Shown here piece by piece: positions 1,313 to 21,068 of a stretch of 22,287 bases of DNA. Below the pieces are notes generated by a model that was not told where the DNA came from, ran no database searches, and saw nothing but the letters and a program-made list of their open reading frames with translations. This DNA is from a virus. Positions within the stretch are counted from its first letter, which is position 1, and each line of letters begins with the position of its first letter. The position numbers and the translations under genes are program-made. The DNA lies in IMG/VR virus record IMGVR_UViG_3300048804_000014, positions 1 through 22,287 of that record. The stretch is one strand, 5' to 3'.

Positions 1313-1696
1313 TTACTTTATGCTTTTCAGAAATTCGGTCAATGGCAATCCGCCAGAAATTCTATAATACGGGTCTCCACTTCTTGATTTTATACTCGGA
1401 GGAATAGGGCCGCTCCATGTCAATTTATCAATCCAGTCTGCTAAAATAACCCCATTATCCGCTGCTTCGTATGGACGGTTGTTATAAACAATTCCTACCA
1501 ATTCGCCCAGTTGATGCAATCCGAAATACGTGTCGTGCGAGTTCTTCTCTACGTTTCTTGTGGTCTTGAAGTCTATTGATAAAATCACGCCGTTTACCAT
1601 TATGCGAATATCTGGAACGTGACCATTCGACAAAAATGGTCGTATCATTTTCATCATATCTTCTTGGAATTTGTCGTGTGCCTCAAAGCGATTCAT
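1313..1696 (-). CDS. PD-(D/E)XK-type nuclease, putative
   Basis: This 127-residue protein has the sequence V-P-D-I at residues 27-30, then a hydrophobic strand and I-D-F-K at 41-44. That is the spacing of a PD-(D/E)XK nuclease core (D29, D42, K44), a fold used by restriction enzymes, Holliday-junction resolvases and VRR-type nucleases. An N-terminal helix with several charged residues precedes the core. The gene starts inside the last 14 bases of the methyltransferase gene, so the two are co-transcribed and probably co-translated. It may be a cognate restriction enzyme or a phage recombination nuclease; the short length fits either. The family call rests on one motif only. Confidence 0.45.
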   Translation of the reverse strand: MNRFEAHDKFQEDMMKMIRPFLSNGHVPDIRIMVNGVILSIDFKTTRNVEKNSHDTYFGLHQLGELVGIVYNNRPYEAADNGVILADWIDKLTWSGPIPPSIKSRSGDPYYRISGGLPLTEFLKSIK

Positions 1697-2822
1697 TTAT
1701 TCTCGACTTTGATATGTTTACGTTTTCATCGAGAATATCTATCCCGTCAAATAGGCATCCGTGTTTGAGCGCGGCTACTCCGGTAGTACCTGCGCCGCAG
1801 AACGGATCGAGAATATACTGACCGGGACTGCATATCTTTGAAATAATATCAAACATGCCACTTTCGGATTGCCCCCATTCGTGGTGCTTTTTATCGTTCG
1901 CATCGCTCTTGAACACATCCGCAAAGCCACGCCCGGAAAACGGGGCGTTTTTCAATTGGTACATTATGAGCGGTTTCCATTGGGGGTTTACGTGCTTTTG
2001 GAATACACCAGCGGTTTCTCCGGGTACGAGATATGCCGCTGTCCAGAAATAATCAAGATGTTCGTCGAGCATTTTATAAATATCTGGCATCCAATAGTGT
2101 GCCGACATTGCAATCAATAATCCGCCCGGTTTCAGCCATTCTTTCGCCCGACGCGCAAGCGTACTATAAAGCGGCAGGTATTCTTTTGGATACGGTGGGT
2201 CGGTGATTATAAAATCGTATTGCCGCGGCGCTTGCCACGTCTCGATGTCTCCCTGCCACACATTCCATCGCTCCGCTTGCGGAACGTCCGCCCCGGCGCG
2301 GGCCATTTCGGCGCGCGCTTCTGTTCGCTTTTCTGTCTGGATTTCTTTATGTGCTTCATGTGCCGTCATTTCCCCGCTGGCGATTCTGTCTATCATCTCT
2401 GGCGCTTCCCGTTCAATTTGCTTTATGGTTGCCACAGTTCGAGGGCTGACGTTGAGCATTTCGGCGGCCTCGTTGCGATCAAGATGCAAATTTGCATCTT
2501 GATTTTTTCTATCTCCGCCGTGTTTCATTGTCTCAAGCTTAGACGCCACAACTGCCCGTTGGCTTTCGTTCAAATGCCGCCTGTGCAAGTTCAGGCTGAT
2601 AACGTATCCAAGTGGATCGTTGCCGGTGTATTCGATATAGGTTGGTTCTATGTTTTCGGCCCCGGCGGCTTCGTATCGGTTGCGACCGTCCAGGATTTTC
2701 GTGCCATATAAAACAATTGCGCACTCTGGACGGTATCCATTGTTGCGCATATCGGATCGTAAAGCGGACATTTCCGCATCGTTCATTCTTGGAAAAAGAT
2801 TTGCGTACTCGTGATATTCCAT
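1683..2822 (-). CDS. ParB-domain/DNA methyltransferase fusion (N6-adenine or N4-cytosine)
   Basis: The product is 379 residues. Residues 1-80 form a ParB/Srx-like domain with DGRNRYEA at 45-52. Residues 85-170 are helical, with a NESQRAVVASKL helix and an HTH-like NEAAEMLNVSPRTVATI segment. Residues 185-375 are an amino-methyltransferase: catalytic DPPY at 208-211, then the SAM-binding DPFCGAGTTG at 339-348. This motif order, catalytic before SAM-binding, is that of beta-class N6-adenine or N4-cytosine DNA methyltransferases such as those of the N6_N4_Mtase family. Such fusions are common in phages, often as orphan enzymes protecting phage DNA. Here a nuclease gene overlaps the 3' end. A clear AGGAGA ribosome site lies eight bases ahead of the ATG. 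Confidence 0.9.
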   Translation of the reverse strand: MEYHEYANLFPRMNDAEMSALRSDMRNNGYRPECAIVLYGTKILDGRNRYEAAGAENIEPTYIEYTGNDPLGYVISLNLHRRHLNESQRAVVASKLETMKHGGDRKNQDANLHLDRNEAAEMLNVSPRTVATIKQIEREAPEMIDRIASGEMTAHEAHKEIQTEKRTEARAEMARAGADVPQAERWNVWQGDIETWQAPRQYDFIITDPPYPKEYLPLYSTLARRAKEWLKPGGLLIAMSAHYWMPDIYKMLDEHLDYFWTAAYLVPGETAGVFQKHVNPQWKPLIMYQLKNAPFSGRGFADVFKSDANDKKHHEWGQSESGMFDIISKICSPGQYILDPFCGAGTTGVAALKHGCLFDGIDILDENVNISKSRINESL

Positions 2823-8729: not shown

Positions 8730-9534
8730 CCTAATCACGCGTTATCGCGCCCGTTTGGACGAGCAAAGTGACTCCGATCTGCGCAGATTAATCGATGCTT
8801 ACGGGCGCATGTCGCAACGGCTCAAAGACCGCGTTGACCTGCTGCTGGGCGAGATTGAACGCAACCCGAACGCGTCCATAAAGCAAATGGCGCGCTATCA
8901 CGAACTGGTAGACGCGCTCAATGCTGAATTCGAGAAGTATGATATCTATCTGGAGACCGAACTCGAAGCGATACAGGCACGCGAAACTACACAAGCAAAG
9001 CTCGACACAGCCGCGCTGATTGCCGCTGCTCTGGCGTTGCGTGGAATGACGGTCAAGCCGGCACAAGTGCCAGTGTCGCAAACGGTCCCGTCCGTGCTTG
9101 CCCCGGGTTCTGCTGCGTACAAGCGATTGCACGAACTGGCGCCATTGCAAGCGCAACGTATCATTGACAAGCTGTTGGAGGGTGTCAATCGCGGGTACGG
9201 GTTCGAGAAGCTGGGTGCGATGATTGTCAACGACCTGGGACTCGGTCTTTCGGATGCGATGCGCTGGGCGCGGACTACGCAGATGACCAGCTACAGGCTC
9301 ACGTCACACAATACCATGGTGCAAAATTCAAATATTCTAGCCGGGTGGGATTGGTTCGCCCAGCTAGATGATGCGACCTGTACCGGCCCCGGGAGTTGTA
9401 GTGAACAGCACGGAACCTTTCACGGACTAGATGAAAATATAAGTGATTTGACTAACCACATTTGGAATTGTAGATGCGTTGAACTTCCCCGTGTTATCGG
9501 TGACGAGAGTCCGATTGCAAAAGCATCAGAGTAA
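8710..9534 (+). CDS. MuF-type minor head protein
   Basis: The 274-residue protein is a Mu gpF-like head morphogenesis protein that is packaged in small number near the portal. The N-terminal half is helical. The diagnostic part is residues 183-257: AMRWARTTQMTSYR, then WFAQLDDATC-x5-C (C224, C230), QHG (H234), and NHIWNCRC (C254, C256), which together form the metal-binding end typical of the family. The last 180 or so bases look richer in A and T than the rest of the gene, and the opposing HNH gene abuts here. The gene overlaps the previous one by 20 bases, with a GGAAAAC-type ribosome site. Confidence 0.88.
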   Translation: MANSPLDLITRYRARLDEQSDSDLRRLIDAYGRMSQRLKDRVDLLLGEIERNPNASIKQMARYHELVDALNAEFEKYDIYLETELEAIQARETTQAKLDTAALIAAALALRGMTVKPAQVPVSQTVPSVLAPGSAAYKRLHELAPLQAQRIIDKLLEGVNRGYGFEKLGAMIVNDLGLGLSDAMRWARTTQMTSYRLTSHNTMVQNSNILAGWDWFAQLDDATCTGPGSCSEQHGTFHGLDENISDLTNHIWNCRCVELPRVIGDESPIAKASE

Positions 9535-10167
9535 CCGTCCACCCTCTGCCCACTCATGAGGAAGTTTCGCGTTCTTTCTCGAATTGCACGTCTGACAAGC
9601 AATCACGATATTCTCTGGAATATTCGCCCCGCCGCGCGAAAGCGGAACGACATGATCGGCGTGATAATGTTCTCCGGCGGGATTTCCACAATAATAGCAC
9701 TTCCCTTTTTGTCGCTTGAACTGAGTGCGAATATCATCCTTGGTTACTTTTCCACCACTTCCCGCCTTTTGTGCCCTGCGTTTATTGCCATGAATACGCG
9801 CTTGTTCGTTGCGTTCTGGGCGATTTTTATCCTCCCATATTTTGTTGTAGGCAGCCACTTTATCATGATTCGCCCTAACGTATTTTCTATGCGTTTCTGT
9901 GATGTGCGCCCGATGAATACGCCTGTATTCCTTTATGTGCTCTTTGTTTTCTATATTGCGCCGCTTTTTCTGAATCCCGATTTCTTCTTTGTGGCTTTCG
10001 TAATACGCCTTATCGTAAGCCGCTTCGTAGACCGGATCGAGCATTGCTTTACAGCATTCTTTGCATGGGGAACGAAACTGAGTCTTTCCCCGTTTGTCGC
10101 CGCGGTAAAAGTATTCAAGGGTTGCGGGTTTTTCGCGCCCACACTTATGACAAATTTTAGTATCCAT
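9526..10167 (-). CDS. HNH homing endonuclease, free-standing
   Basis: From the ATG at 10167 (GGAGG eight bases upstream) the protein is 213 residues. Residues near the N-terminus have C-H-K-C...C-K-E-C zinc knuckles as in phage HNH proteins with an added DNA-binding zinc finger. A long basic helical middle follows (EYRRIHRAH..., NKIWEDKNRPERNEQARIHGNKRR). The C-terminal nuclease has CYYC, HADHVVPLSRGG, ENIVIACQTCNSRK, giving the H-N-H residues and two zinc knuckles. It opposes every neighbour and overlaps the MuF stop by nine bases, the usual sign of an invading selfish element. Upstream in-frame starts are rejected for lack of a ribosome site. Confidence 0.9.
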   Translation of the reverse strand: MDTKICHKCGREKPATLEYFYRGDKRGKTQFRSPCKECCKAMLDPVYEAAYDKAYYESHKEEIGIQKKRRNIENKEHIKEYRRIHRAHITETHRKYVRANHDKVAAYNKIWEDKNRPERNEQARIHGNKRRAQKAGSGGKVTKDDIRTQFKRQKGKCYYCGNPAGEHYHADHVVPLSRGGANIPENIVIACQTCNSRKNAKLPHEWAEGGRLL

Positions 10168-10258
10168 GGGTATTGCCTCCAAACCCTCAAAGGAATGTGG
10201 GAAGGCCGGAGGGCTAGGCTTTTCGAGCGGTTCATGAGGCCGTTCTATCCCACAACGA

Positions 10259-10315
10259 ATTATACCATAATTGGGCATTCCACAGCGTGTCAAGTGATGG
10301 GTAATAGGGTATAAT
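10259..10315. promoter_or_regulatory. Divergent promoters between HNH gene and RNA A
   Basis: On the leftward strand TATAAT (10264-10259) is preceded by TGG, an extended -10 form, and would serve the HNH gene. On the rightward strand TATAAT (10310-10315) has TGTCAA 16 bases upstream and would start RNA A near 10322. The TGTCAA hexamer read on the other strand is TTGACA, so one site may be shared. Confidence 0.5.
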
Positions 10316-10493: not shown

Positions 10494-11162
10494 TTGAGAC
10501 TTCTTGATTTATTTTGCGGTGCTGGTGGGGCAGGGATGGGCTACTCCCGCGCCGGGTTCGATGTGGTGGGCGTAGACATAAACCCTCAGCCGCATTACCC
10601 GTTCGAGTTTTATCAGGCGGACGCGTTGGAATACCTAGCGGAACACGGCAGTGAGTTTGACGTTATCCATGCCAGCCCGCCGTGTCAACGATATTCAGCA
10701 ATGACCAACGGGCGCTGGCAGGATAGAGTCGAGGAACACCCCGACCTGATAGAACCCACCAGAATATTACTGATTAAATCGGGTAAACCATATGTTATTG
10801 AAAATGTCCCTGGCGCGCCGCTTCTAAATCCCGTCCTGCTCTGCGGCACAATGTTTTATCTCGAAACACCAAGCGGCAATCAATTAAGGCGGCATAGGTA
10901 TTTTGAATGTTCGTTCCGGGTACCTCTTACTCCGCCATGTCAGCACAACAATCTCTCCGCGGTCGGGGTTTATGGGGGTGGGCAAAATCCAGCACGGAGA
11001 AAACGCAGATATAAATCAGAGGGCGAAGAAAAAGATTTTGGTATCAAGGCGCGCGCTCTAGTTATGGGCATTGATTGGATGACCGGAAAAGAATTAAACG
11101 AAGCCATCCCGCCAGCTTATACCGAATGGATTGGAAAGCAGATATTAGAGAAAGGCTTATGA
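10494..11162 (+). CDS. DNA C5-cytosine methyltransferase, short phage form
   Basis: The 222-residue enzyme methylates carbon 5 of cytosine in DNA. Motif I is DLFCGAGGAGMGYSRAG (5-21), motif IV is SPPCQ with catalytic Cys64, motif VI is ENV (103-105), motif VIII is RRHRYFE (132-138), and the end AIPPAYTEWIG resembles motif X. The target-recognition region is very short, as in other small phage enzymes. The start is TTG at 10494, forced by an in-frame TGA just before it; GAAAGGG lies six bases upstream. It is the first gene of the sugar cassette and abuts the next start codon directly. Its job may be to shield phage DNA from restriction, unrelated to the sugar enzymes. Confidence 0.88.
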   Translation: MRLLDLFCGAGGAGMGYSRAGFDVVGVDINPQPHYPFEFYQADALEYLAEHGSEFDVIHASPPCQRYSAMTNGRWQDRVEEHPDLIEPTRILLIKSGKPYVIENVPGAPLLNPVLLCGTMFYLETPSGNQLRRHRYFECSFRVPLTPPCQHNNLSAVGVYGGGQNPARRKRRYKSEGEEKDFGIKARALVMGIDWMTGKELNEAIPPAYTEWIGKQILEKGL

Positions 11163-12314
11163 ATGCAAGTACCTGTGCATGGTTCGCTACTGGGGGAAGA
11201 TGACTGGAAATCGTTGGAGCAAGCCGTCGCCAAACGCTGGCTGACGGCGGGGCTATACACCCACCAATTCGAGTCGGCGCTGGCGGCACGCTTCGGGCGG
11301 CGTCATGCGCTGTTCGTCAATAGCGGATCGTCCGCGAATCTGTTGGCAATGTCCGCGCTGGAACTGCCGAAGGGCAGCGAAGTCATTACCTCCGCCTGCG
11401 CGTTCCCCACTACCGTTAATCCCATAATTCAATGCGGGCTTGTACCCGTGTTCGTAGACTGCGAACCGGGAACGTGGAATATTGACACGACCCAGTTGGA
11501 GGCGGCGCTATCGGATAAGGCGCGCGCCGTGGTGGTGTGTCACACCTTAGGGAATCCCGTAGATATTGCACCAATAAGACCGTTCTGCTTAAACCATCAC
11601 CTGTATTTAATTGAGGACTGTTGCGACGCGGCAGGGGCTACATATCACGGCGGATACGAAGTGGGTTATTGGGCCGACTTCTCCACCTACTCATTCTACC
11701 CGGCGCACCAGTTGACAACAGGGGAGGGCGGGGCGGTACTGACGGACAACCCGCGCCTTGCCAAGATTGCCGCGTCTTACCGCGACTGGGGGCGTGATTG
11801 CTGGTGCGAGCCGGGGAAGGACGATACCTGCGGGAAGCGGTTCGCGGGCGAGTACGATCACAAGTACACCTACTCCCGTATTGGCTACAACCTGAAGGCG
11901 ACCGACTTGCAGGCGGCGATAGGGTTGTCGCAGTTAGGTAAGTTGGACGAGTTCGTGCATCAAAGATTATGGAATTGGGAATATTTACTTGAGCGTATGG
12001 ACGACTTACCGATTGTCTTACCAAAAGAAACCCCCAACAGTAACCCTTCCTGGTTCGGCTTCGCATTCGGAACGGAGGATAGAAATGAACTTGCTCGGTA
12101 TCTTGATTCTCATGGTGTTGGCAATCGCCCTTTATTCGCCGGAAATATTACTCGTCAACCTGCTTATAAGGACGTTGCTTATCGTGTCGTTGGTGACTTG
12201 CATAATTCAGATTATGCGTTTGAAAACGTCATCTGGGTCGGCTGCTGGCCGGGACTGACGCGGGAGCAACTGGATTACACAGTGGAGGCTATTCGTGGAT
12301 ATTTCCGAACGTAA
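11163..12314 (+). CDS. rfbH: RfbH/E1-type PLP and [2Fe-2S] nucleotide-sugar 3-dehydrase
   Basis: This 383-residue protein belongs to the DegT/DnrJ fold but not to the aminotransferases. The PLP-anchoring Lys is replaced by His (SFYPAHQLTTGEGG, H182), the hallmark of CDP-4-keto-6-deoxyglucose 3-dehydrase (E1, RfbH/DdhC/AscC) and of ColD. Four cysteines fit the E1 iron-sulfur site: C154, C213, C215, C223, i.e. C-x58-C-x-C-x7-C by my count (x57 in the enzymes I recall). NSGSSANLLA and CHTLGNP are also typical. The N-terminus is shorter than in many RfbH proteins. E1 enzymes remove the C3 hydroxyl with a partner reductase (E3), which is absent from this window. The 3' part, from about 12080, shows T-ending codons and contains a second frame. 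Confidence 0.88.
   Translation: MQVPVHGSLLGEDDWKSLEQAVAKRWLTAGLYTHQFESALAARFGRRHALFVNSGSSANLLAMSALELPKGSEVITSACAFPTTVNPIIQCGLVPVFVDCEPGTWNIDTTQLEAALSDKARAVVVCHTLGNPVDIAPIRPFCLNHHLYLIEDCCDAAGATYHGGYEVGYWADFSTYSFYPAHQLTTGEGGAVLTDNPRLAKIAASYRDWGRDCWCEPGKDDTCGKRFAGEYDHKYTYSRIGYNLKATDLQAAIGLSQLGKLDEFVHQRLWNWEYLLERMDDLPIVLPKETPNSNPSWFGFAFGTEDRNELARYLDSHGVGNRPLFAGNITRQPAYKDVAYRVVGDLHNSDYAFENVIWVGCWPGLTREQLDYTVEAIRGYFRT
12085..12258 (+). CDS. Possible overprinted two-helix membrane protein inside rfbH
   Basis: In the +1 frame of the rfbH 3' end, an ATG lies six bases after a perfect GGAGG and opens 57 codons. The product has two hydrophobic segments (LLGILILMVLAIALYSPE and LLIRTLLIVSLVTCIIQIM) and a charged tail (RLKTSSGSAAGRD), the shape of a small holin-like or other membrane protein. 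The host gene uses unusually many T-ending codons exactly here, which places T in the middle codon position of this frame and so creates hydrophobic residues. This could be selection for a real gene or a side effect of foreign codon usage. It has no known family. Confidence 0.35.
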   Translation: MNLLGILILMVLAIALYSPEILLVNLLIRTLLIVSLVTCIIQIMRLKTSSGSAAGRD

Positions 12315-13041
12315 GCGAGTATTTGTTACGGGCGGCATGGGCTTTGTCGGTCAGTGGATGCGCAAGACGCAACCCGAAGGCGTGTTCGCTGCCTACGGAG
12401 ACAGTCGGGACAAATACAAATGGACGACACGCACGGATGTAAAAATGGATTACATCGTCCATCTTGCGCCCATCAGTCCTGGCATGATATTGAATTATGC
12501 GGAGAGTCACAATACCCGAGTCCTGTTCGTTTCATCCGGTGCTGTGCATGACCGGATGGACGATTACTCTCACAACAAAAGATTGTGGGAAGAGCAATGT
12601 AAGCACAGCAAGGCAGATATAGTCATTGCCCGCCCGTTCTGCTTCGTGGGTGAGTACCTGCAACTGAACCGTTATTCAATAGGGCAGTTCATTCAGGATG
12701 GCTTGAACGGCGGGCCTGTGCATTACTACGATACTGGTTGCATCCGCTCTTATATGCACGGCTCTGATTTGGGGCGCTGGCTGTGGGAAATACTGCTGAA
12801 CGGAACCGGAGCGTATGACGTCGGCTCGTCTATCGCCGTGACCATGCGGGATGTGGCAGAAACAGTGGCGAAAGAATTTGGCACGACTGCGATTGCCGAC
12901 CTTGCTCCAGAACGTGGCAAGCCGCAGGTGTATCTACCTGATACCGCGCGGGCGCGCAAGGAATTGGGGCTGAAAGAGACGGTATCCCTGCCGGAGGGCG
13001 TCCGGCGCATGATTGCCTGGAATAGAGAGAGGATGAAATAA
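12295..13041 (+). CDS. NAD(P)-dependent nucleotide-sugar epimerase/reductase (extended SDR)
   Basis: The 248-residue protein has the Rossmann motif VTGGMGFVG (11-19), a catalytic serine pair SSG (80-82) and YxxxK (Y91-SHN-K95), the active-site set of short-chain dehydrogenases acting on nucleotide sugars. At 248 residues it is short for the extended class. It starts with GTG at 12295, eleven bases downstream of GGAGG, and overlaps rfbH by 20 bases. After E1, a reductase of this kind could reduce the branched keto sugar or the 4-keto group, as YerF-type or AbeE/Prt-type enzymes do. Substrate is not readable from sequence. The next start overlaps its stop by one base (TAATG). Confidence 0.8.
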   Translation: MDISERKRVFVTGGMGFVGQWMRKTQPEGVFAAYGDSRDKYKWTTRTDVKMDYIVHLAPISPGMILNYAESHNTRVLFVSSGAVHDRMDDYSHNKRLWEEQCKHSKADIVIARPFCFVGEYLQLNRYSIGQFIQDGLNGGPVHYYDTGCIRSYMHGSDLGRWLWEILLNGTGAYDVGSSIAVTMRDVAETVAKEFGTTAIADLAPERGKPQVYLPDTARARKELGLKETVSLPEGVRRMIAWNRERMK

Positions 13042-14048
13042 TGAATATCGTAATCTTTGGCGCCGGACAGGTTGGACGGCATGTCATCCGGGGGCTGCGC
13101 AAGATGGACTGCGAACCGCTGTGCTTCTGCGAGGACAAACGACATGATATTGACGTTGACGGACTGGCCGTCATCCCAACAAAAGAAGCTATACGCAGAT
13201 ACCTGGACGCGTTGTATGTGATAGCACTGCACCAACCCGCAGAGACAATCAAACGCTTAACCTGGTTGGGCGTGGAGGCGCAATCGTGGGTGCAGTTTGC
13301 TTTCCGGTACCCAACCGTGTTACTGCCCTATTGTTTCCTTTCCGCCTTCCCCGCTAGAATAACGTCGAAGGAAAAAGAAGCTTGGACAATTTGGGCGGAC
13401 GAAGAATCTACCAAAGAATACGCGAATCAAATCGTATGGCGACACTCGCAAGGGCGCGGGTATTTGTCGCCACATGCGGATATCGAGGATATGTACTTCC
13501 CGCCCGACTTGGTTACGCTTCGGCAGGATGAAGTATTCGTGGACTGCGGTGCGTATGATGGGGATACGATACGCTGGTTTCACAATCACGGCGGAGCTGG
13601 GAAAGTTATTGCCATTGAGCCGGATGCAGTAAACGCAAGACGCCTAAACGAGATTCATCCTGGCATTGATGTCATACCATTTGCGCTTGGGGTGCGACGC
13701 GGGCACGTCCAGATTGACACCGGGAACGGATTGTACACCAAGACTGGGCAAGGGCGTGATACCGTCGTGTGCGACACGCTTGATCACATCCTGAAAGGCA
13801 TGAAGCCGACCTATATCAAGATGGACATCGAGGGCGCTGAACTGGACGCGCTTCACGGTGCGGCGAAAACCATCAAGACACACAAGCCGGTTTTGGCAAT
13901 CTGTCTGTATCACAAGCCTACTGACCTGTGGGAGATTCCGCTGTACATTCGGAGCATTGCCCCGGATTATCGGCTATACTTACGGCGCTATGCTGAGGAC
14001 TGCTGGGAGTCGGTGCTGTACTGTGTCCCGGCGGAAAGGGTAAAATGA
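13041..14048 (+). CDS. FkbM-family SAM-dependent methyltransferase
   Basis: The 335-residue protein has two parts. Residues 1-80 form a small Rossmann-like domain with IVIFGAGQVGRHV (3-15), similar to the N-terminal NAD-binding or PglD-like domains found ahead of some FkbM enzymes. Residues 150-330 are the methyltransferase, with VFVDCGAYDGDT (165-176), AIEPDAVNARRL and IKMDIEGAELDAL (259-271), the last being diagnostic of FkbM. Such enzymes O-methylate sugars or polyketides. Within this operon the simplest role is methylating a hydroxyl of the deoxysugar or of a transferred glycan. The stop overlaps the next ATG (ATGA). Confidence 0.85.
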   Translation: MNIVIFGAGQVGRHVIRGLRKMDCEPLCFCEDKRHDIDVDGLAVIPTKEAIRRYLDALYVIALHQPAETIKRLTWLGVEAQSWVQFAFRYPTVLLPYCFLSAFPARITSKEKEAWTIWADEESTKEYANQIVWRHSQGRGYLSPHADIEDMYFPPDLVTLRQDEVFVDCGAYDGDTIRWFHNHGGAGKVIAIEPDAVNARRLNEIHPGIDVIPFALGVRRGHVQIDTGNGLYTKTGQGRDTVVCDTLDHILKGMKPTYIKMDIEGAELDALHGAAKTIKTHKPVLAICLYHKPTDLWEIPLYIRSIAPDYRLYLRRYAEDCWESVLYCVPAERVK

Positions 14049-14578
14049 AGGTCTCTGATTTCATAGCCAATGAACTTGTAGGGCTTGGCGTAACCCACGT
14101 ATTCACGCTTCCTGGTGGTTTTAGCCAGAACCTAAACGATTCAATCGCCCATACTCCAGGCCTGACGCCCGTTTATATGCTCCACGAGAGCGGGGCAGGC
14201 TTCGCCGCCGTGAACTACGCGGCCTATTCTGGCAAGCTAGGCGTGGCCGTTGTCACGTCGGGGCCGGGATGCACGAACATCCTGACCGCGGTTGCTTCGG
14301 CATATCAGGATAGCGTTCCGTTGCTGGTCATATCGGGTGAGGCGAATGTACAGAACGTGGAGAATCGGCGCAAGTTTCAACTTCGACAGGGCGGGCCGCA
14401 GGATGTGGAGATTGAGAAAATAGCGCGCCCGATAACGAAATACATAGACGTGGCAGAAAACGGAATCGGGGCGAAATGGATACTGTCGCAGGCGGTCAAG
14501 TATGCACTACAAGACAGGCGCGGGCCCGTGTGGGTGATTGTGCCGCTTGACGTGCAGGGAATGGAGTGTGCAGAATGA
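14045..14578 (+). CDS. ThDP-enzyme pyrimidine-binding (N-terminal) subunit
   Basis: The 177-residue product equals only the N-terminal PYR domain of acetohydroxyacid-synthase-like enzymes, which are normally about 550 residues in one chain. It keeps the catalytic glutamate (HESGAGFAAVNYA, E48), VTSGPGCTN, and QDSVPLLVISGEAN. It ends at VWVIVPLDVQGMECAE, the usual border to the central domain. The other two domains are encoded by the next gene, which starts within the ATGA overlap. Splitting exactly at a domain border, with translational coupling, argues for a functional two-subunit enzyme rather than random decay; a frameshift remains possible. In yersiniose synthesis a ThDP enzyme (YerE) adds the two-carbon branch. 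Confidence 0.82.
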   Translation: MKVSDFIANELVGLGVTHVFTLPGGFSQNLNDSIAHTPGLTPVYMLHESGAGFAAVNYAAYSGKLGVAVVTSGPGCTNILTAVASAYQDSVPLLVISGEANVQNVENRRKFQLRQGGPQDVEIEKIARPITKYIDVAENGIGAKWILSQAVKYALQDRRGPVWVIVPLDVQGMECAE

Positions 14579-15678
14579 ACGGAATATCCGAACTAATTGC
14601 ACACTTGCAACAATCCGAACGCCCGCTAATCCTGATGGGCGCGGGCGCACGTGATGCTGCTTCTGATATTATCGCATTCGCAGAGCGCTTCGACATCCCG
14701 ATACAAACGACCTGGAATGCCATTGACCTTATCCCGTGGGAACACAGACTCTTCGTTGGCAGGCCCGGCGCGGTGGCTTGCCGTGGTGCGAATTTTGTCA
14801 TCCAGAACTGTGACTTGCTGATTGCAATCGGGGCGCGTCTGGACGAGGGAACGATAGCGTATAAATACGACCTATTCGCGCCAAAGGCCAAGAAAGTGCT
14901 GGTAGACATTGACCGGGGCGAAGCGTTGAAGATCCCCAACCTGGATTTGTTCATCCATGCGGATGCGGGGGTGTTTATACGGGAAATGATAGCATTCGCT
15001 GATAGCACTCCCGAATGGTACGACATACCAGAACGTCACGCTTGGCCGGCACAATGTCAAAAATGGTTTTCGCGGTATTTCCTCGAAGGAACTGGCGGCA
15101 CATACGAACTGGTCGAGAACCTGTCCAACAACCTACCATCCGATGCCATACTCATTCTCGGAAGCAGCACGACAGCCGTCTCCCTATTCTGTGCGGGTTT
15201 CCGCCAGAAAAAAGGACAGCGGGTTATCCTGTCATCCTGCGGACTGGGTTCGATGGGCGCAACCATCCCCGGCGCAGTTGGGGTTGCTTTAGCAAGCGGG
15301 AAACATGTCACGGTCATTGACGGCGACGGCTCATTCATGCAGAACATTCAGGAGTTAGAAGTAGTTAGACGGTTGTACCTGCCTATCACGTTTTACGTTA
15401 TCAACAATGGCGGGTATGCCTCCATCCGTAATGCACAGAAGCGCGCATTCGAAAGGGTATCCGGCGCTGACCTTGCGAGCGGTCTGACCCTGCCGAGTAT
15501 TCAGGCGGTCGCTGATGCGTTCAGGATCATTGCCTGCGATTACGTTCCGGGCGTGTACAAGCAGGAAGATTTCCCGATGGTGCTGGAAGTCACCGCCCCG
15601 CATGATGAGTTAATAATCCCCCGCGTGATGTTCGATGGCAGGGGCAATCTAGGAGACTTATGGCCCTACAAGGATTGA
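14575..15678 (+). CDS. ThDP-enzyme central and ThDP-binding (C-terminal) subunit
   Basis: From the ATG at 14575 the protein is 367 residues. Residues 1-145 form the central TPP_enzyme_M domain (RPLILMGAGARDAA, IAIGARLDEGT, VLVDIDRGEA). Residues 170-350 are the PP domain, with the diphosphate-magnesium motif IDGDGSFMQNIQELEVVRR (GDG at 250-252) ending in N277-N278. A GTG nine bases earlier in the same frame is possible, but the ATGA overlap makes ATG more likely. Together with the previous gene it makes a complete acetolactate-synthase/YerE-type enzyme able to form an acyl-anion from pyruvate. It overlaps the radical SAM gene by 19 bases. An FAD-binding role of the central domain cannot be decided by eye. 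Confidence 0.85.
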   Translation: MNGISELIAHLQQSERPLILMGAGARDAASDIIAFAERFDIPIQTTWNAIDLIPWEHRLFVGRPGAVACRGANFVIQNCDLLIAIGARLDEGTIAYKYDLFAPKAKKVLVDIDRGEALKIPNLDLFIHADAGVFIREMIAFADSTPEWYDIPERHAWPAQCQKWFSRYFLEGTGGTYELVENLSNNLPSDAILILGSSTTAVSLFCAGFRQKKGQRVILSSCGLGSMGATIPGAVGVALASGKHVTVIDGDGSFMQNIQELEVVRRLYLPITFYVINNGGYASIRNAQKRAFERVSGADLASGLTLPSIQAVADAFRIIACDYVPGVYKQEDFPMVLEVTAPHDELIIPRVMFDGRGNLGDLWPYKD

Positions 15679-16715
15679 CCCCCCGCGAAGTTACCAACCA
15701 AAGCAACCTTAGCGCATCCAAGCCGCTGGTATATGCCAAGGTGCTGAAATACCCCGATATGGTCGCGGCGGGCAAGTCTATCGCCTGTCTGGATGTGCAA
15801 TACAACTTCCTGTGCAACTTTCACTGCGTCCATTGTGCCGTATCCAGCCAACGGGGTATCACACGCGCGGGCATGTTGACGCCGGGCGACATAAAGCACC
15901 TGTGCGATCAGGGCGACGCGCTGGGGCTGGCTCATTTCTCATGGACAGGCGGGGAGCCGCTGGTTGTAAAAGAGTTCGACAAGGTAATCGAAGCCATCGG
16001 CCCGGAGCGCTTCCACATCCACATTGATACGAATGGATGGTTTATTGACGATGCGAAAGCGCGCCACCTAAAAGCCATTGGCGTGGACAAGATACAACTC
16101 AGCCTTGACGGACTGGACGCACAGCAACACGACGCATTCAGGCGCAAGCCGGGCAGCTTTTACCGAGTACTGCGTGCCGCTGAAGCAACCAAAGCGGCGG
16201 GGATGAGTTTGCAGATTGCAACCTTTGTAGACCACGACCGCGCTCAGACGCTAGAACTTGAACGCTTCCTAGATTTTACCGATTCCATTGGTGCAGTTGT
16301 CAATATCCAGACCGTCAAGCTGATGGGAGAATTGCAGGGGCGCTATGACATGCTCCTGACGGATGCGGATATGGTGCATTTGAAGGGGCAAGAAACACGC
16401 CATCACGTTACAACCCACCTGACCCCGTTCTATGGGATTGATATGGGCTGCATGGCGGTCAAGAAGATGCTGGTCATAAATGCTTGGGGCGATGCGATGC
16501 CATGTCCGGGGATGCGGTTTGTGCTGGGGAATATTCGCACTACGCCGCTGGCCGATATACTTGCGAAGGGCATGAGATATTTCGGAGCATACGAACCAAC
16601 TTGCCGCGCTTCGCAGGACGTGGAATTCAACCGGCGCTACGTGGCACGGACGGAAAACCCGTTGCCGATTGAAGATGTAATGCCCTACGACTGGCACGTG
16701 GAGGACATGGCGTGA
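15660..16715 (+). CDS. Radical SAM/SPASM-domain protein
   Basis: This 351-residue protein has the radical SAM cluster motif C52-x3-C56-x2-C59 (CNFHCVHC), the SAM-binding GGEP (97-100), and later LSLDG and an FVDH strand. A SPASM-like C-terminal region has C264, C282 and C315 within GCMAVKK, MPCPG and YEPTC, suggesting an auxiliary iron-sulfur cluster. SPASM proteins modify peptides or carry out sugar and alcohol oxidations. In this operon it may dehydrogenate, deaminate or rearrange a sugar intermediate, or modify a peptide; the substrate is unknown. AGGAGA lies just ahead of the ATG, which is inside the end of the ThDP gene. It could be the least expected member of the cassette. Confidence 0.88.
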   Translation: MALQGLTPREVTNQSNLSASKPLVYAKVLKYPDMVAAGKSIACLDVQYNFLCNFHCVHCAVSSQRGITRAGMLTPGDIKHLCDQGDALGLAHFSWTGGEPLVVKEFDKVIEAIGPERFHIHIDTNGWFIDDAKARHLKAIGVDKIQLSLDGLDAQQHDAFRRKPGSFYRVLRAAEATKAAGMSLQIATFVDHDRAQTLELERFLDFTDSIGAVVNIQTVKLMGELQGRYDMLLTDADMVHLKGQETRHHVTTHLTPFYGIDMGCMAVKKMLVINAWGDAMPCPGMRFVLGNIRTTPLADILAKGMRYFGAYEPTCRASQDVEFNRRYVARTENPLPIEDVMPYDWHVEDMA

Positions 16716-17872: not shown

Positions 17873-18757
17873 ATGACCATTGGACTTAATACCTGGGATG
17901 ACATCAGCGCCATTGGGCGTGTCATTCAAGAAGACGCTCGGTTTGTAGTTCGAGAGAGCTACATTCTGCCCGGACTGGTTACTGGATTCGGTGACTTGTC
18001 TGGCGGTAACGTGCGTCGCTCGTATGCTTACAACCAACTCACCGCCGCAACCGTCGGGGAACATACTGATTTGCAAAGCACTATGTTTGCTCCGTCGGTT
18101 GACCAGACCTTGACGCCTTATGAAATCGCGTTGATGTCTTTCGTCACCGATCTTCGACGCGACAGCGAAGCACCGGAAAGCATCATCACCGACGTTGCGC
18201 GCGAGCTTGGTTTTGCTGCTGCCGATAAAGTTGAAACTGACATTTACGGCGATTTCGCAAGCCTGACCGGCGGTACGGTCGGGTCGGTTACTCAAGCCCC
18301 TGCCTTTGGCATCCTTTCGGCCGCAATTGCACAGGCCCGAAACGCCAACAAGAACAATAAGATCCCGTTGGTCTGTGTCATTCACGGATACTCATGGCAA
18401 ATCCTCGCCAAGGCTACTTCCGTTGCAGGTTCCTCGCTTGCTCAGGCTCCTGGATTCACCGAGGAAATGACCCGCACTGGTTACGTCGGCGCATTTGACG
18501 GCGTTCCGATTTACCAGATTTGGCCCGCCACTCAGGGAACCGGTGCCGGGACTTCTGGTACTGCGTGGTCGTATGGAGCAGTATTCCCCAAATCCGCTCT
18601 CGCACTGGATTGGCGTCGCCCTGTCCGCGTTGAGGCCGAGCGTAACGCCTCCTTGCGCGGTACCGAATTCAACATGAGCGCGGTCTATGCTCATGGCGTG
18701 TGGCGTCCTGCTCTTGGCGTACAAATCCTTCAACTCGCCAACGTTCCGAGCAACTAG
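17873..18757 (+). CDS. Major capsid protein
   Basis: This 294-residue protein follows the scaffold gene after a GGAGG ribosome site and fits an HK97-fold coat protein. It has an N-terminal arm (MTIGLNTWDDISAIGRVIQEDARFV), an E-loop-like region around residues 45-75, a spine helix (SIITDVARELGFAAADKVETDIYGD), the P-domain sheet ending VEAERNASLRGTEFNMSAVYAHGVWRP, and the A-domain segment YVGAFDGVPIYQ. The family resembles those called 'phage capsid protein' in environmental siphophages. No protease gene is visible, so maturation probably relies on scaffold release without an HK97-type cleavage. The sub-family is not certain. Confidence 0.85.
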   Translation: MTIGLNTWDDISAIGRVIQEDARFVVRESYILPGLVTGFGDLSGGNVRRSYAYNQLTAATVGEHTDLQSTMFAPSVDQTLTPYEIALMSFVTDLRRDSEAPESIITDVARELGFAAADKVETDIYGDFASLTGGTVGSVTQAPAFGILSAAIAQARNANKNNKIPLVCVIHGYSWQILAKATSVAGSSLAQAPGFTEEMTRTGYVGAFDGVPIYQIWPATQGTGAGTSGTAWSYGAVFPKSALALDWRRPVRVEAERNASLRGTEFNMSAVYAHGVWRPALGVQILQLANVPSN

Positions 18758-18767
18758 GAGATATAAG

Positions 18768-19166
18768 ATGGCACACTGCGAAGATATTCACGGTTTTGTA
18801 GCAAGTGTCGGTATTATGCCGACGGGCGGAGGAACTATCCTGGTTCCCCTGTTCTATAATTCACCCCAGAATGGCGACATCACCATTACCAGCGCGTTCT
18901 CGGTTTGTCCGGGAGTTGCGTATGCTGGTGGGACTGCCAAACTTCGATTGGTCAATCTGGGTACTTCTGGGACGGTCACTGAGGCTGTTCTATGGAACTT
19001 GGGCTCCAGTGGAACCATGACCGTTTACGATGGTTTTGTCCCCATCAAGGGCGCGGCCGTTACTCCCGTTCTGGGTGCTGGCAAATGGGCCGGTGTCGAG
19101 AATGGATTGGGAACGGCCGGAACTCTGACCCTTGTCGGATTCAACTATCTCAAGGGCGTTGGATAA
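18768..19166 (+). CDS. Putative head decoration protein
   Basis: The ATG at 18768 has AGGAGATATA before it and gives 132 residues. An earlier in-frame ATG at 18687 lies inside the capsid gene and is rejected. The sequence is rich in Gly, Thr, Val and Ser with few charges (TGGGTILVPLFYN, GTAKLRLVNLGTSGTVTEAVLWNLGSSGTMTVYDG), pointing to an all-beta fold. A small beta protein encoded right after the major capsid gene is often a capsid-stabilising decoration protein. Its many surface Ser/Thr candidates make it a possible glycosylation target for the two transferases that follow. Function is inferred from position and composition. Confidence 0.55.
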   Translation: MAHCEDIHGFVASVGIMPTGGGTILVPLFYNSPQNGDITITSAFSVCPGVAYAGGTAKLRLVNLGTSGTVTEAVLWNLGSSGTMTVYDGFVPIKGAAVTPVLGAGKWAGVENGLGTAGTLTLVGFNYLKGVG

Positions 19167-19221: not shown

Positions 19222-20454
19222 ATGACCGAAGAAATAAAAGAAACACAGAACCTTAACAAATTAGGAATACATTGGGTTGGGAATGCGGTTTGGGCGCAAA
19301 CTGGATACGGTGGGCAAGCTAAGTTATTGCTTCCCAGATTCGCAAAACTTGGCCACCAACCTTCCATGACAGCGTATTATGGACTCCAGGGCCACATGCT
19401 CCAGATCAATAACATGAACGTTTTCCCGATGGGTTATCACCCGTATGGAATGGATGTATGTGCCAGCAATGCACAGATAAGCCGGGCGAGAATCTTGATG
19501 ACCTGCTTGGATGTGTGGGTTTGTGAACCGCAAATGTTTACCGGGGACGTTCTCTGGGTTCCCTGGTATCCGATTGACTCGGAGACGGTCAACACAGGGA
19601 TAAAGGCCAAACTCCCCGCCGCGTTTGACATGATCGCCATGAGCAAATTCGGGCAACGGAAAGTCGAAGAGCTTGGACTCAAAACTCACTATGCCCCTTG
19701 CTGCGTGGATACAACCATATTCGCGCCCGCGGACAGAGAGACTTCGCGAGTGTCCGCGAGTGAGCAGATCACCGCCCCGCTTCCAAAAGATGCTTTTATT
19801 GTGTCTATGGTTGCGATGAACAAAGGCAACCCATCCCGCAAAGCGTTTTACGAGCAGTTTAGAGCATTCAGGGCACTTCACAACAAGCATCCCGATACCG
19901 TCTTATATGCTCATACAATCACAAGCGAAGCCGGACAACAGGGTGGGGTCAACCTACTGGAAATATGTGCGGCGCTGGACCTGAAAGTCGGAGTAGACAT
20001 TATCTTTCCGAATGCGCTGGCGATTATCAACGGCTATCAGGATACATTCCTGAATTCGGTTTACAACGCTTCGGATGTGCTTTTGTCTGTGACTATGGGT
20101 GAAGGCTTCGGGATACCGATTATCGAAGCGCAAGCTGCCGGATGCCCGGTAATCATCGGAGACTGGACTTCCATGTCAGAGTTAAAGTTTAGCGGCTGGT
20201 CAGTGGACAAGTCCGAAGCTTCTGAATTTTGGACGCCGCTCAATGCTATTCAGTACCTGCCAAAATGGGAAGCCATAGCGGACAGACTTGAAATGGCTTA
20301 CCAGATGCGCGGAAATATGGACTATCGTAAGCGGGCGCGCAAGGGCGCGTTAGCGTATGATTGTGACAAGGTTCTGGAAAAGCACTGGGTTCCCATCCTG
20401 GCAGAAATCGACGCCAAAGTGAAAGAACGTCCTACGTTCACGGTGCCAGTATGA
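19222..20454 (+). CDS. GT4-family glycosyltransferase (GT-B fold)
   Basis: The 410-residue enzyme has the two-domain layout of GT-B transferases. The C-terminal half holds the donor-binding E-x7-E motif in MGEGFGIPIIEAQAAGCPVI (E294, E302), typical of retaining GT4 enzymes, and a preceding YNASDVLLSV strand. The N-terminal half has WAQTGYGGQAKLL, a usual acceptor-domain glycine loop. It is placed among virion genes after the capsid and decoration genes and coupled by ATGA to a second transferase. Related phages with glycosyltransferases in this position are known to glycosylate capsid or tail proteins; the donor here could be the sugar made by the upstream cassette. Confidence 0.87.
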   Translation: MTEEIKETQNLNKLGIHWVGNAVWAQTGYGGQAKLLLPRFAKLGHQPSMTAYYGLQGHMLQINNMNVFPMGYHPYGMDVCASNAQISRARILMTCLDVWVCEPQMFTGDVLWVPWYPIDSETVNTGIKAKLPAAFDMIAMSKFGQRKVEELGLKTHYAPCCVDTTIFAPADRETSRVSASEQITAPLPKDAFIVSMVAMNKGNPSRKAFYEQFRAFRALHNKHPDTVLYAHTITSEAGQQGGVNLLEICAALDLKVGVDIIFPNALAIINGYQDTFLNSVYNASDVLLSVTMGEGFGIPIIEAQAAGCPVIIGDWTSMSELKFSGWSVDKSEASEFWTPLNAIQYLPKWEAIADRLEMAYQMRGNMDYRKRARKGALAYDCDKVLEKHWVPILAEIDAKVKERPTFTVPV

Positions 20455-21068
20455 ACCTACCCAACGACGCGATTCTGGTGCAGCACGTTTCCGAGAACTG
20501 GGAAGGCGCAAACATGTTCAAGGTTACCGCAGCCCGGAACATAGAATACATCCTGAAGCACCGGATGGATTACCAAATGCTTATTGCCGGGCAGGACATA
20601 GATAAAATCGGCGACTGGGCGAAGGTTCGGTTGTTGCGCCATACGATGGAAATCGAGCAGTATAAATACATCATCTGGCTGGATTGCGACACGGTGATAA
20701 TTGACATGGATGCAGACCTGCGAGACGGATGCCCGCCTGACAAGATCGGGGCTTGCCGCCACGTCCTGACCAAGCCACCATACAACCTGAATCTCGACCA
20801 TCTGAATATCGGTGCTTTGTACTTCCAAAACACCGAGGCGAACAAGAAACGGTTTGATGATTGGCTGGCAGGATATCCAGGTCCAGAGACTCCAGCATGG
20901 CGCGAGCAGGGCGTGTTCAATAACATCGGAATCGGCGTCGAGATAGACGCGAAATGGAACGCCACCGGAAAAGTAAATCCATCCCCGAATCCCGTGGTTT
21001 TGGGATTTCACGGGCAAGGCGATGTAAGAGGTAGGTTTGACCAGATGTGTAAAGCGTTAGGAAAATAA
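20451..21068 (+). CDS. GT-A-type glycosyltransferase
   Basis: This 205-residue protein has a DXD metal-binding motif in YIIWLDCDTVI (D78-C-D80) preceded by an N-terminal VTAARNIEYILKHRMDY helix, and later LNIGALYFQNTEANKKRFDDW and an EQGVFN segment, the pattern of GT-A fold enzymes related to the GT34/GT8-type galactosyl- and mannosyltransferases. A closing HGQGDVRGRF may provide the metal-binding His. It is coupled to the GT4 gene by ATGA, so the two likely act in sequence on one glycan. The exact GT family is uncertain. Confidence 0.78.
   Translation: MNLPNDAILVQHVSENWEGANMFKVTAARNIEYILKHRMDYQMLIAGQDIDKIGDWAKVRLLRHTMEIEQYKYIIWLDCDTVIIDMDADLRDGCPPDKIGACRHVLTKPPYNLNLDHLNIGALYFQNTEANKKRFDDWLAGYPGPETPAWREQGVFNNIGIGVEIDAKWNATGKVNPSPNPVVLGFHGQGDVRGRFDQMCKALGK

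Follow-up and report, generated by a model that had tools for sequence, protein, structure and literature searches.

We analyzed the virus record IMGVR_UViG_3300048804_000014, a linear sequence of 22,287 bases that is probably a fragment (the window, below, is this entire record), which carries a cassette of predicted branched-sugar genes among phage head genes. Positions 10494-16715 hold seven plus-strand genes, each overlapping or abutting its neighbor. These encode, in order, a C5 DNA methyltransferase, an E1/RfbH-type 3-dehydrase (E1), a short-chain dehydrogenase/reductase (SDR), an FkbM-family methyltransferase, a thiamine diphosphate (ThDP) enzyme in two pieces, and a radical SAM/SPASM protein. 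Pfam and NCBIfam searches recovered all of the tightly overlapping cassette genes named in a first-pass annotation, which had placed the cassette at 10494-16715. That interval encloses the cassette but also takes in the DNA methyltransferase (10494-11162), which the annotation did not mention, and the sugar cassette proper spans 11163-16715, on the plus strand.

The first-pass annotation also set the cassette inside a structural operon, and this held. TerL, an SPP1-type portal and MuF are encoded upstream, and a scaffold, a capsid protein (assigned by position) and a head completion protein downstream. The region that runs from TerL into E1, as far as residue 220, is covered by contigs from other metagenomes at 99.7-99.9% identity, and that from the end of the radical SAM gene to the head completion gene by another such contig at 91-100% identity. 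Since independent, near-identical contigs cover both flanks, the place of the cassette among head genes is real. These second assemblies span both flanks, but not the junction between the two ThDP pieces (ThN and ThC).

A predicted RfbH-type dehydrase

The E1 protein scored above the cut-off for the RfbH family (NF011936, 507 bits against 423) and aligned to the solved Yersinia enzyme (PDB 3bcx, 4e-117). His220, which replaces the lysine of aminotransferases, was present in the window and in 55/55 phage copies, and the window protein has equivalents of all four Fe-S cysteines (C193, C251, C253 and C261). C251, C253 and C261 were conserved in 55/55 phage copies and C193 in 53/55, while all 80 bacterial copies retained His220 and the four cysteines. 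As the first-pass annotation had supposed, its assignment as an RfbH-type dehydrase, and not an aminotransferase, is thus well supported by sequence. In the E1 tree the window fell inside a clade of 19 sequences, all from phages (SH-aLRT 98), which marks it as an old phage lineage rather than a recent acquisition.

A YerE-like ThDP carboligase divided into subunits

The third PDB match of the joined ThDP pieces was 5ahk, which we take to be PpYerE. The best was 8rph (1e-63), with IlvB next (1e-53); 8rph is JanthE, a YerE-like enzyme that accepts ketones (PMC12188165). A careful tree placed the window enzyme in a clade of 17 phage and bacterial copies (support 100/99), whose bacterial members (L101, L107, L108, L122, L125, L140, L143 and L146) were all retrieved as E1 loci. 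IlvB and IlvI lay outside the YerE-like clade with support of 100/100. The exact sister of the window enzyme is unsure because its terminal branch is long (2.14). The catalytic Glu48 and the second Asn of the ThDP motif were present in 39/39 phage copies and the GDG motif in 37/39. In the window the catalytic Glu, the GDG and NN motifs and the PF00205 central domain are all intact.

The highest NCBIfam scores of the two pieces were for the acetolactate synthase large subunit, and at 103 and 147 bits they compare with cut-offs of at least 538 for the full-length protein; the window enzyme thus falls below these cut-offs as well as outside the IlvB/IlvI clade. Sulfopyruvate decarboxylase ComDE is built of PYR and PP subunits without a central domain. 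The window enzyme keeps this domain, and only one phage copy (L002) is without it; the tree contained no ComDE sequence. It is well supported that the window encodes a predicted YerE-like carboligase and not an acetolactate synthase, and its grouping with E1-linked YerE-like enzymes agrees with the pathway class first proposed. Of the two outcomes named at the start as contradicting that class, a ThDP enzyme of non-sugar decarboxylase type and an aminotransferase-like E1, neither emerged, to the extent that sequence can show it.

The carboligase was split between domains in 32/39 phage copies, in four layouts, and in none of 44 bacterial copies, all single open reading frames (ORFs), five of them truncated by contig ends. 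Among the phage copies, 15 divided as PYR+central and PP, 14, including the window, as PYR and central+PP, two into three separate domains and one as PYR and PP, and seven were single-chain. A 45-row tree required five changes between split and single-chain forms and seven changes of layout, and a larger quick tree eight changes of layout. The split pieces are under purifying selection, with dN/dS of about 0.03-0.27 where dS was unsaturated, and start-stop overlaps occur at many of the junctions. In the window, ThC was listed as an ORF from GTG 14566, and its natural start is ATG 14575, where it overlaps the PYR gene by ATGA. We rejected sequencing errors as an origin of the splits, which affect 32/39 copies, fall at fixed domain borders, show ATGA overlaps and are accompanied by purifying selection. 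In two phages a GIY-YIG/NUMOD3 homing-endonuclease-like gene lies between the ThDP pieces (L005:7585-8571 and L027:335-1006), which suggests such insertion as one route to splitting. One enzyme family cut at each domain border, in phages only and with at least five separate single-chain/split changes on the tree, would amount to a natural experiment in enzyme fission.

Table 1. Features of the window, cassette genes first.
Feature	Position	Strand	Evidence
E1/RfbH-type CDP-4-keto-6-deoxyglucose 3-dehydrase (predicted), 383 aa	11163..12314	+	NF011936, PDB 3bcx, key residues
Compact nucleotide-sugar SDR, 248 aa	12295..13041	+	PF01370; GGxGFVG, SSG, YxxxK
FkbM-family methyltransferase, N-terminal Rossmann-like part	13041..14048	+	PF05050 1e-17, TIGR01444
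PYR-domain subunit (ThN) of predicted split YerE-like ThDP carboligase	14045..14578	+	PF02776 6e-33
Central + PP-domain subunit (ThC) of predicted YerE-like ThDP carboligase	14575..15678	+	PF00205 9e-32, PF02775 1e-22
Radical SAM/SPASM enzyme	15660..16715	+	PF04055 1e-22, PF13186 5e-6; BlsE 3e-10
GT4-type glycosyltransferase	19222..20454	+	PF13692 9e-8, PF00534 3.5e-7
GT34-like GT-A glycosyltransferase, DxD motif	20451..21068	+	PF05637 1.4e-5
C5 DNA methyltransferase	10494..11162	+	PF00145 4e-8, phrog_363 2e-44
Major capsid protein	17873..18757	+	Position after scaffold; 35-54% homologues in the same place in group A phages
Small Gly/Thr/Ser-rich protein	18768..19166	+	22-26% similar proteins in the same place in L006, L024, L044, L047

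Occurrence in other viruses and bacteria

A scan for E1 found 62 viral loci, and the counts that follow exclude this phage (n=61). A YerE-like ThDP enzyme accompanied E1 in 42 of these loci and a transketolase-type pair in five; six had neither although flanks were present, and the rest were cut short. YerE-like enzymes were also found in 44 of the 80 best bacterial E1 loci, mostly with RfbF and RfbG adjacent. The cassette occurs in at least two unrelated phage groups. Group A is siphovirus-like, as in the window. In many phages the cassette lies, as here, with a portal gene on one side and a capsid gene on the other. Group B encodes a protein resembling the N4-type virion RNA polymerase and has its own GT10 and GT2 genes as well as E1, ThDP and SDR genes. 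TerL relatives of the window at 70-73% identity carry the cassette where record length allows (L166, L170, L173 and L175); E1 was not found with five TerL relatives at 49% identity (L177-L181). In the 80,305-base record containing L170 and L175, both TerL and the E1 cassette occur twice, at a distance of 54 kb, reflecting either tandem phages or misassembly. Matches in named phage records reached at most 48% identity for E1 and 32% for ThDP, and no cultivated phage with the cassette was found.

The position next to E1 is subject to exchange. The group B loci L050 and L033 are 97% identical through E1, wholly different in the ThDP slot and then 87% identical; at about 11199-13000, L050 has a transketolase pair where L033 has a YerE-like enzyme. 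The same exchange separates L039 from L029 and L030, and in all a transketolase pair follows E1 in three phages (L026, L039 and L050) and lies beside it in L032. That two carboligase superfamilies exchange in one slot is good evidence that the function of this slot is branching.

Accessory enzymes

The AlphaFold2 model of the SDR (pLDDT 92) resembled extended SDRs acting on nucleotide sugars in a comparison of PDB folds, which resolves this class only. The SDR is the probable reductase of the new branch. Homologs of the FkbM protein were found near ThDP genes in L108 (Anaerolineales, 38% identical), L107, L101 and L137. The CxxxCxxC motif of the radical SAM protein and three cysteines of its SPASM region were invariant in seven homologs, including those of bacterial E1/ThDP clusters; fold comparison, from a model of pLDDT 70, indicated a generic SPASM/twitch fold. 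In L140 the ThDP gene has a homolog (41%) as its neighbor, and L125 and L122 have others nearby. Further homologs occur in phages L023, L043, L044 and L047, and a second SPASM family (c7) in other phages. Single-sequence scans of viral contigs found no loci with FkbM and one with the radical SAM protein, and the viral spread of both was judged from E1 loci alone.

Glycosyltransferases adjoining the capsid gene

Two glycosyltransferase (GT) genes at 19222-21068, absent from the first-pass account, lie after the capsid and Gly/Thr/Ser-rich protein genes and before the head completion gene. A reading of this stretch as structural genes was overturned by Pfam. In profile searches the GT4-type protein had chlorovirus glycosyltransferase B736L as its best PDB match (1.4e-10), and the GT34-like protein matched xyloglucan xylosyltransferases (1e-7).

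In the 80 viral loci found with GT4, whether or not they carry the cassette, this gene almost always came after the one for the capsid; the window belongs to a large phage family with this arrangement. The GT34-like gene was present in 8/8 cassette-bearing and 1/25 cassette-lacking loci (p 6e-7, uncorrected for shared ancestry), the state of the cassette being judged by E1, ThDP or SPASM genes. When limited to loci showing both portal and capsid, the test had one positive only (p 0.04) and is nearly uninformative because cassette-bearing loci are long. In cassette-lacking relatives, genes for GT2, methyltransferase, epimerase and radical SAM proteins are often found following GT4. This suggests a variable glycan locus tied to the phage head, in which the GT34-like enzyme is likely to be the transferase of the branched sugar. 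The small Gly/Thr/Ser-rich protein is a candidate decoration protein.

Other genes of the window

The capsid protein had no match in a Pfam search. The C5 DNA methyltransferase that abuts E1 is probably cargo separate from the cassette; no such gene adjoined E1 in the group A loci examined, except in L003, which is the same phage. An HNH endonuclease gene (9526-10293, minus strand, opposed to the operon) lies between MuF and the DNA methyltransferase, and an N6/N4 DNA methylase gene (1683-2822, minus strand) near the left end of the window.

Proposed pathway and alternatives

Homology, key residues and phylogeny support the predicted enzyme families and their linkage. We consider that the window encodes part of a pathway that would furnish the virion with a 3,6-dideoxy sugar, CDP-activated and branched at C4, and give this reading a probability of about 0.6. 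Its first element, the predicted synthesis of a branched dideoxy sugar, is well supported and we hold it with considerable confidence. We infer the order of reactions, the donor, the steps of the radical SAM and FkbM enzymes and the virion target as follows. CDP-4-keto-6-deoxyglucose would be supplied by host enzymes here, and by phage RfbF/RfbG-like enzymes in some relatives. E1 and a borrowed reductase would remove its 3-oxygen, and the two-part ThDP enzyme would add to C4 an acyl group from a 2-oxo acid, either pyruvate or a longer hydroxylated acid. The new ketone would be reduced by the SDR, the sugar O-methylated by FkbM and changed once more by the radical SAM enzyme. The two GTs encoded beside the capsid gene would then attach it, most likely to the capsid or decoration protein.

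The first-pass annotation modeled this scheme on yersiniose synthesis. The E1/ThDP class bears this out, but the acyl group may come from a 2-oxo acid with a longer chain than pyruvate. In two bacterial loci whose carboligases share the window enzyme's ThDP clade (L108 and L143), the gene next to the carboligase encodes a fusion of a NeuB-family synthase and a cupin, and a HAD or nucleotidase-like phosphatase accompanies it. NeuB-like matches also occur in L107, L122 and L125, and NeuB in three phage loci, among them L024; it is absent from the window. The carboligases of the loci with NeuB could use a 3-deoxy-2-ulosonic acid as donor, which agrees with the use of hydroxylated 2-oxo acids by ErwE (PMC12247030). 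By analogy with these bacterial relatives, the donor of the window enzyme may also differ from pyruvate.

Several observations weigh against the pathway as drawn. As first noted, the cytidylyltransferase RfbF and the E3 reductase were not found in the window and no 4,6-dehydratase RfbG was recognized among its annotated ORFs, so that the pathway would depend on the host; the complete yersiniose set (RfbF, RfbG and E3 with E1, YerE and YerF) is not present. The suggestion that other phage genes might supply the missing enzymes was borne out in part. RfbG-like genes, at 168-197 bits and below cut-off, are present in L023, L024, L043, L044, L047 and L058, and RfbF-like genes in L023, L034 and others, L023 carrying both along with E1 and ThDP. 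A search of 21 phage records, the window among them, found no E3-type reductase (PF00970). E3 was likewise without a match in two of the five bacterial genomes searched, and E1 may therefore work with another reductase. The GT4 gene also occurs in relatives without the cassette and so need not use the branched sugar, and a homolog of either GT was not found in cassette phages G002 and G036. The activity of the split ThDP enzymes is a prediction, and the case for a virion target consists solely of gene position and co-occurrence.

That target we nevertheless regard as probable. The same pathway might instead place its sugar on the host surface polysaccharide, with transferases of host or phage origin, thereby preventing superinfection or altering the receptor. 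The bacterial relatives of the enzymes do lie in surface-polysaccharide-like clusters, YerE-like enzymes function in lipopolysaccharide (PMC12247030), and phage O-antigen sugar genes are usually taken to act on the host surface (PMC12911398, PMC10980836). However, the genes lie in the head module, with GTs flanking the capsid gene, and are presumably expressed late with the capsid genes, when surface remodeling would be of little use; we consider this alternative unlikely, though a serious competitor. Far less probably, the ThDP enzyme serves to boost the amino-acid metabolism of the host, as an acetolactate synthase or another decarboxylase of 2-oxo acids, and lies next to E1 only incidentally. 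Its top NCBIfam scores point that way, though far under cut-off, and are opposed by its tree placement, the JanthE match, the repeated linkage to E1 in phages and bacteria, and the exchange of a transketolase pair into the same slot.

Similarly improbable is a product that modifies phage DNA. The DNA methyltransferase gene abutting E1 could be read so, yet it does not adjoin E1 in relatives that retain E1, ThDP and SDR. The bacterial homologs of the cassette enzymes might also reflect a chimeric contig or a misbinned bacterial glycan island, a reading we can practically dismiss given the independent contigs over both flanks, the phage-only clade of 19 E1 sequences, and the same portal-capsid position in many phages. 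Sugar synthesis for the virion is therefore the reading that we prefer, and if it is true, a complex bacterial antigen pathway has moved into virus particles. We advance more tentatively, at somewhat under even odds, the generalization that many phages make C-branched dideoxy sugars with which they glycosylate their own capsids and which they diversify as a virion serotype, with a carboligase swapped between ThDP superfamilies in one slot and rendered multi-subunit from separate PYR, central and PP domains.

Comparison with known systems

The set was first described as new to the literature. A literature search, with most subscription papers outside its reach, found no description of E1 with a branching carboligase in phages, but the set is not unique to this phage, as the viral E1 loci show. 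Viruses have been named as unexplored for enzymes of this kind (PMC12247030). Phage O-antigen-type sugar genes have been reported (PMC12911398, PMC10980836, PMC8226683), but these reports list UDP, dTDP or GDP sugars or take 'ilvB' as amino-acid metabolism. One lists rfbG and 'ilvB' genes of Chlorobium phages, read in the latter way (Table 1 of PMC8226683); these may represent the same kind of pathway. A wider caution applies to viral auxiliary genes labeled 'ilvB/acetolactate synthase', which are usually assigned to amino-acid metabolism and may encode enzymes that branch sugars.

Two carboligase superfamilies are known or proposed to branch keto sugars; the transketolase type, of miharamycin and amipurimycin, is proposed to transfer a hydroxyacetyl group (PMC12247030). 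It is shared with related phages, as the pair in their E1-adjacent slot, but belongs to an unrelated ThDP superfamily and is not in the window. Closer is the yersiniose A/YerE pathway of the Yersinia O-antigen (with its kin ErwE and JanthE), which has in common E1, an acetohydroxyacid synthase-like ThDP carboligase of the same clade and a reductase. The window version differs in being phage-borne within a head operon, in its two-piece ThDP enzyme, in being without E3, RfbF and RfbG, and in its extra FkbM and radical SAM proteins. Surface-glycan clusters of Omnitrophota (L140) and Anaerolineales (L108) share E1, the YerE-like enzyme and radical SAM proteins, together with an SDR (L140) or FkbM (L108). 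The gene order in L140, the bacterial counterpart, is ThDP, radical SAM, radical SAM, methyltransferase, SDR, E1 and GT2. In contrast to the window, these clusters have single-chain ThDP enzymes, with RfbF/RfbG and NeuB-cupin (L108) or GT2 (L140), and no phage genes. Mycobacteriophages glycosylate their virions with phage-encoded glycosyltransferases. The window phage shares with them GT genes adjoining capsid genes and also encodes the predicted synthesis of the rare sugar itself.

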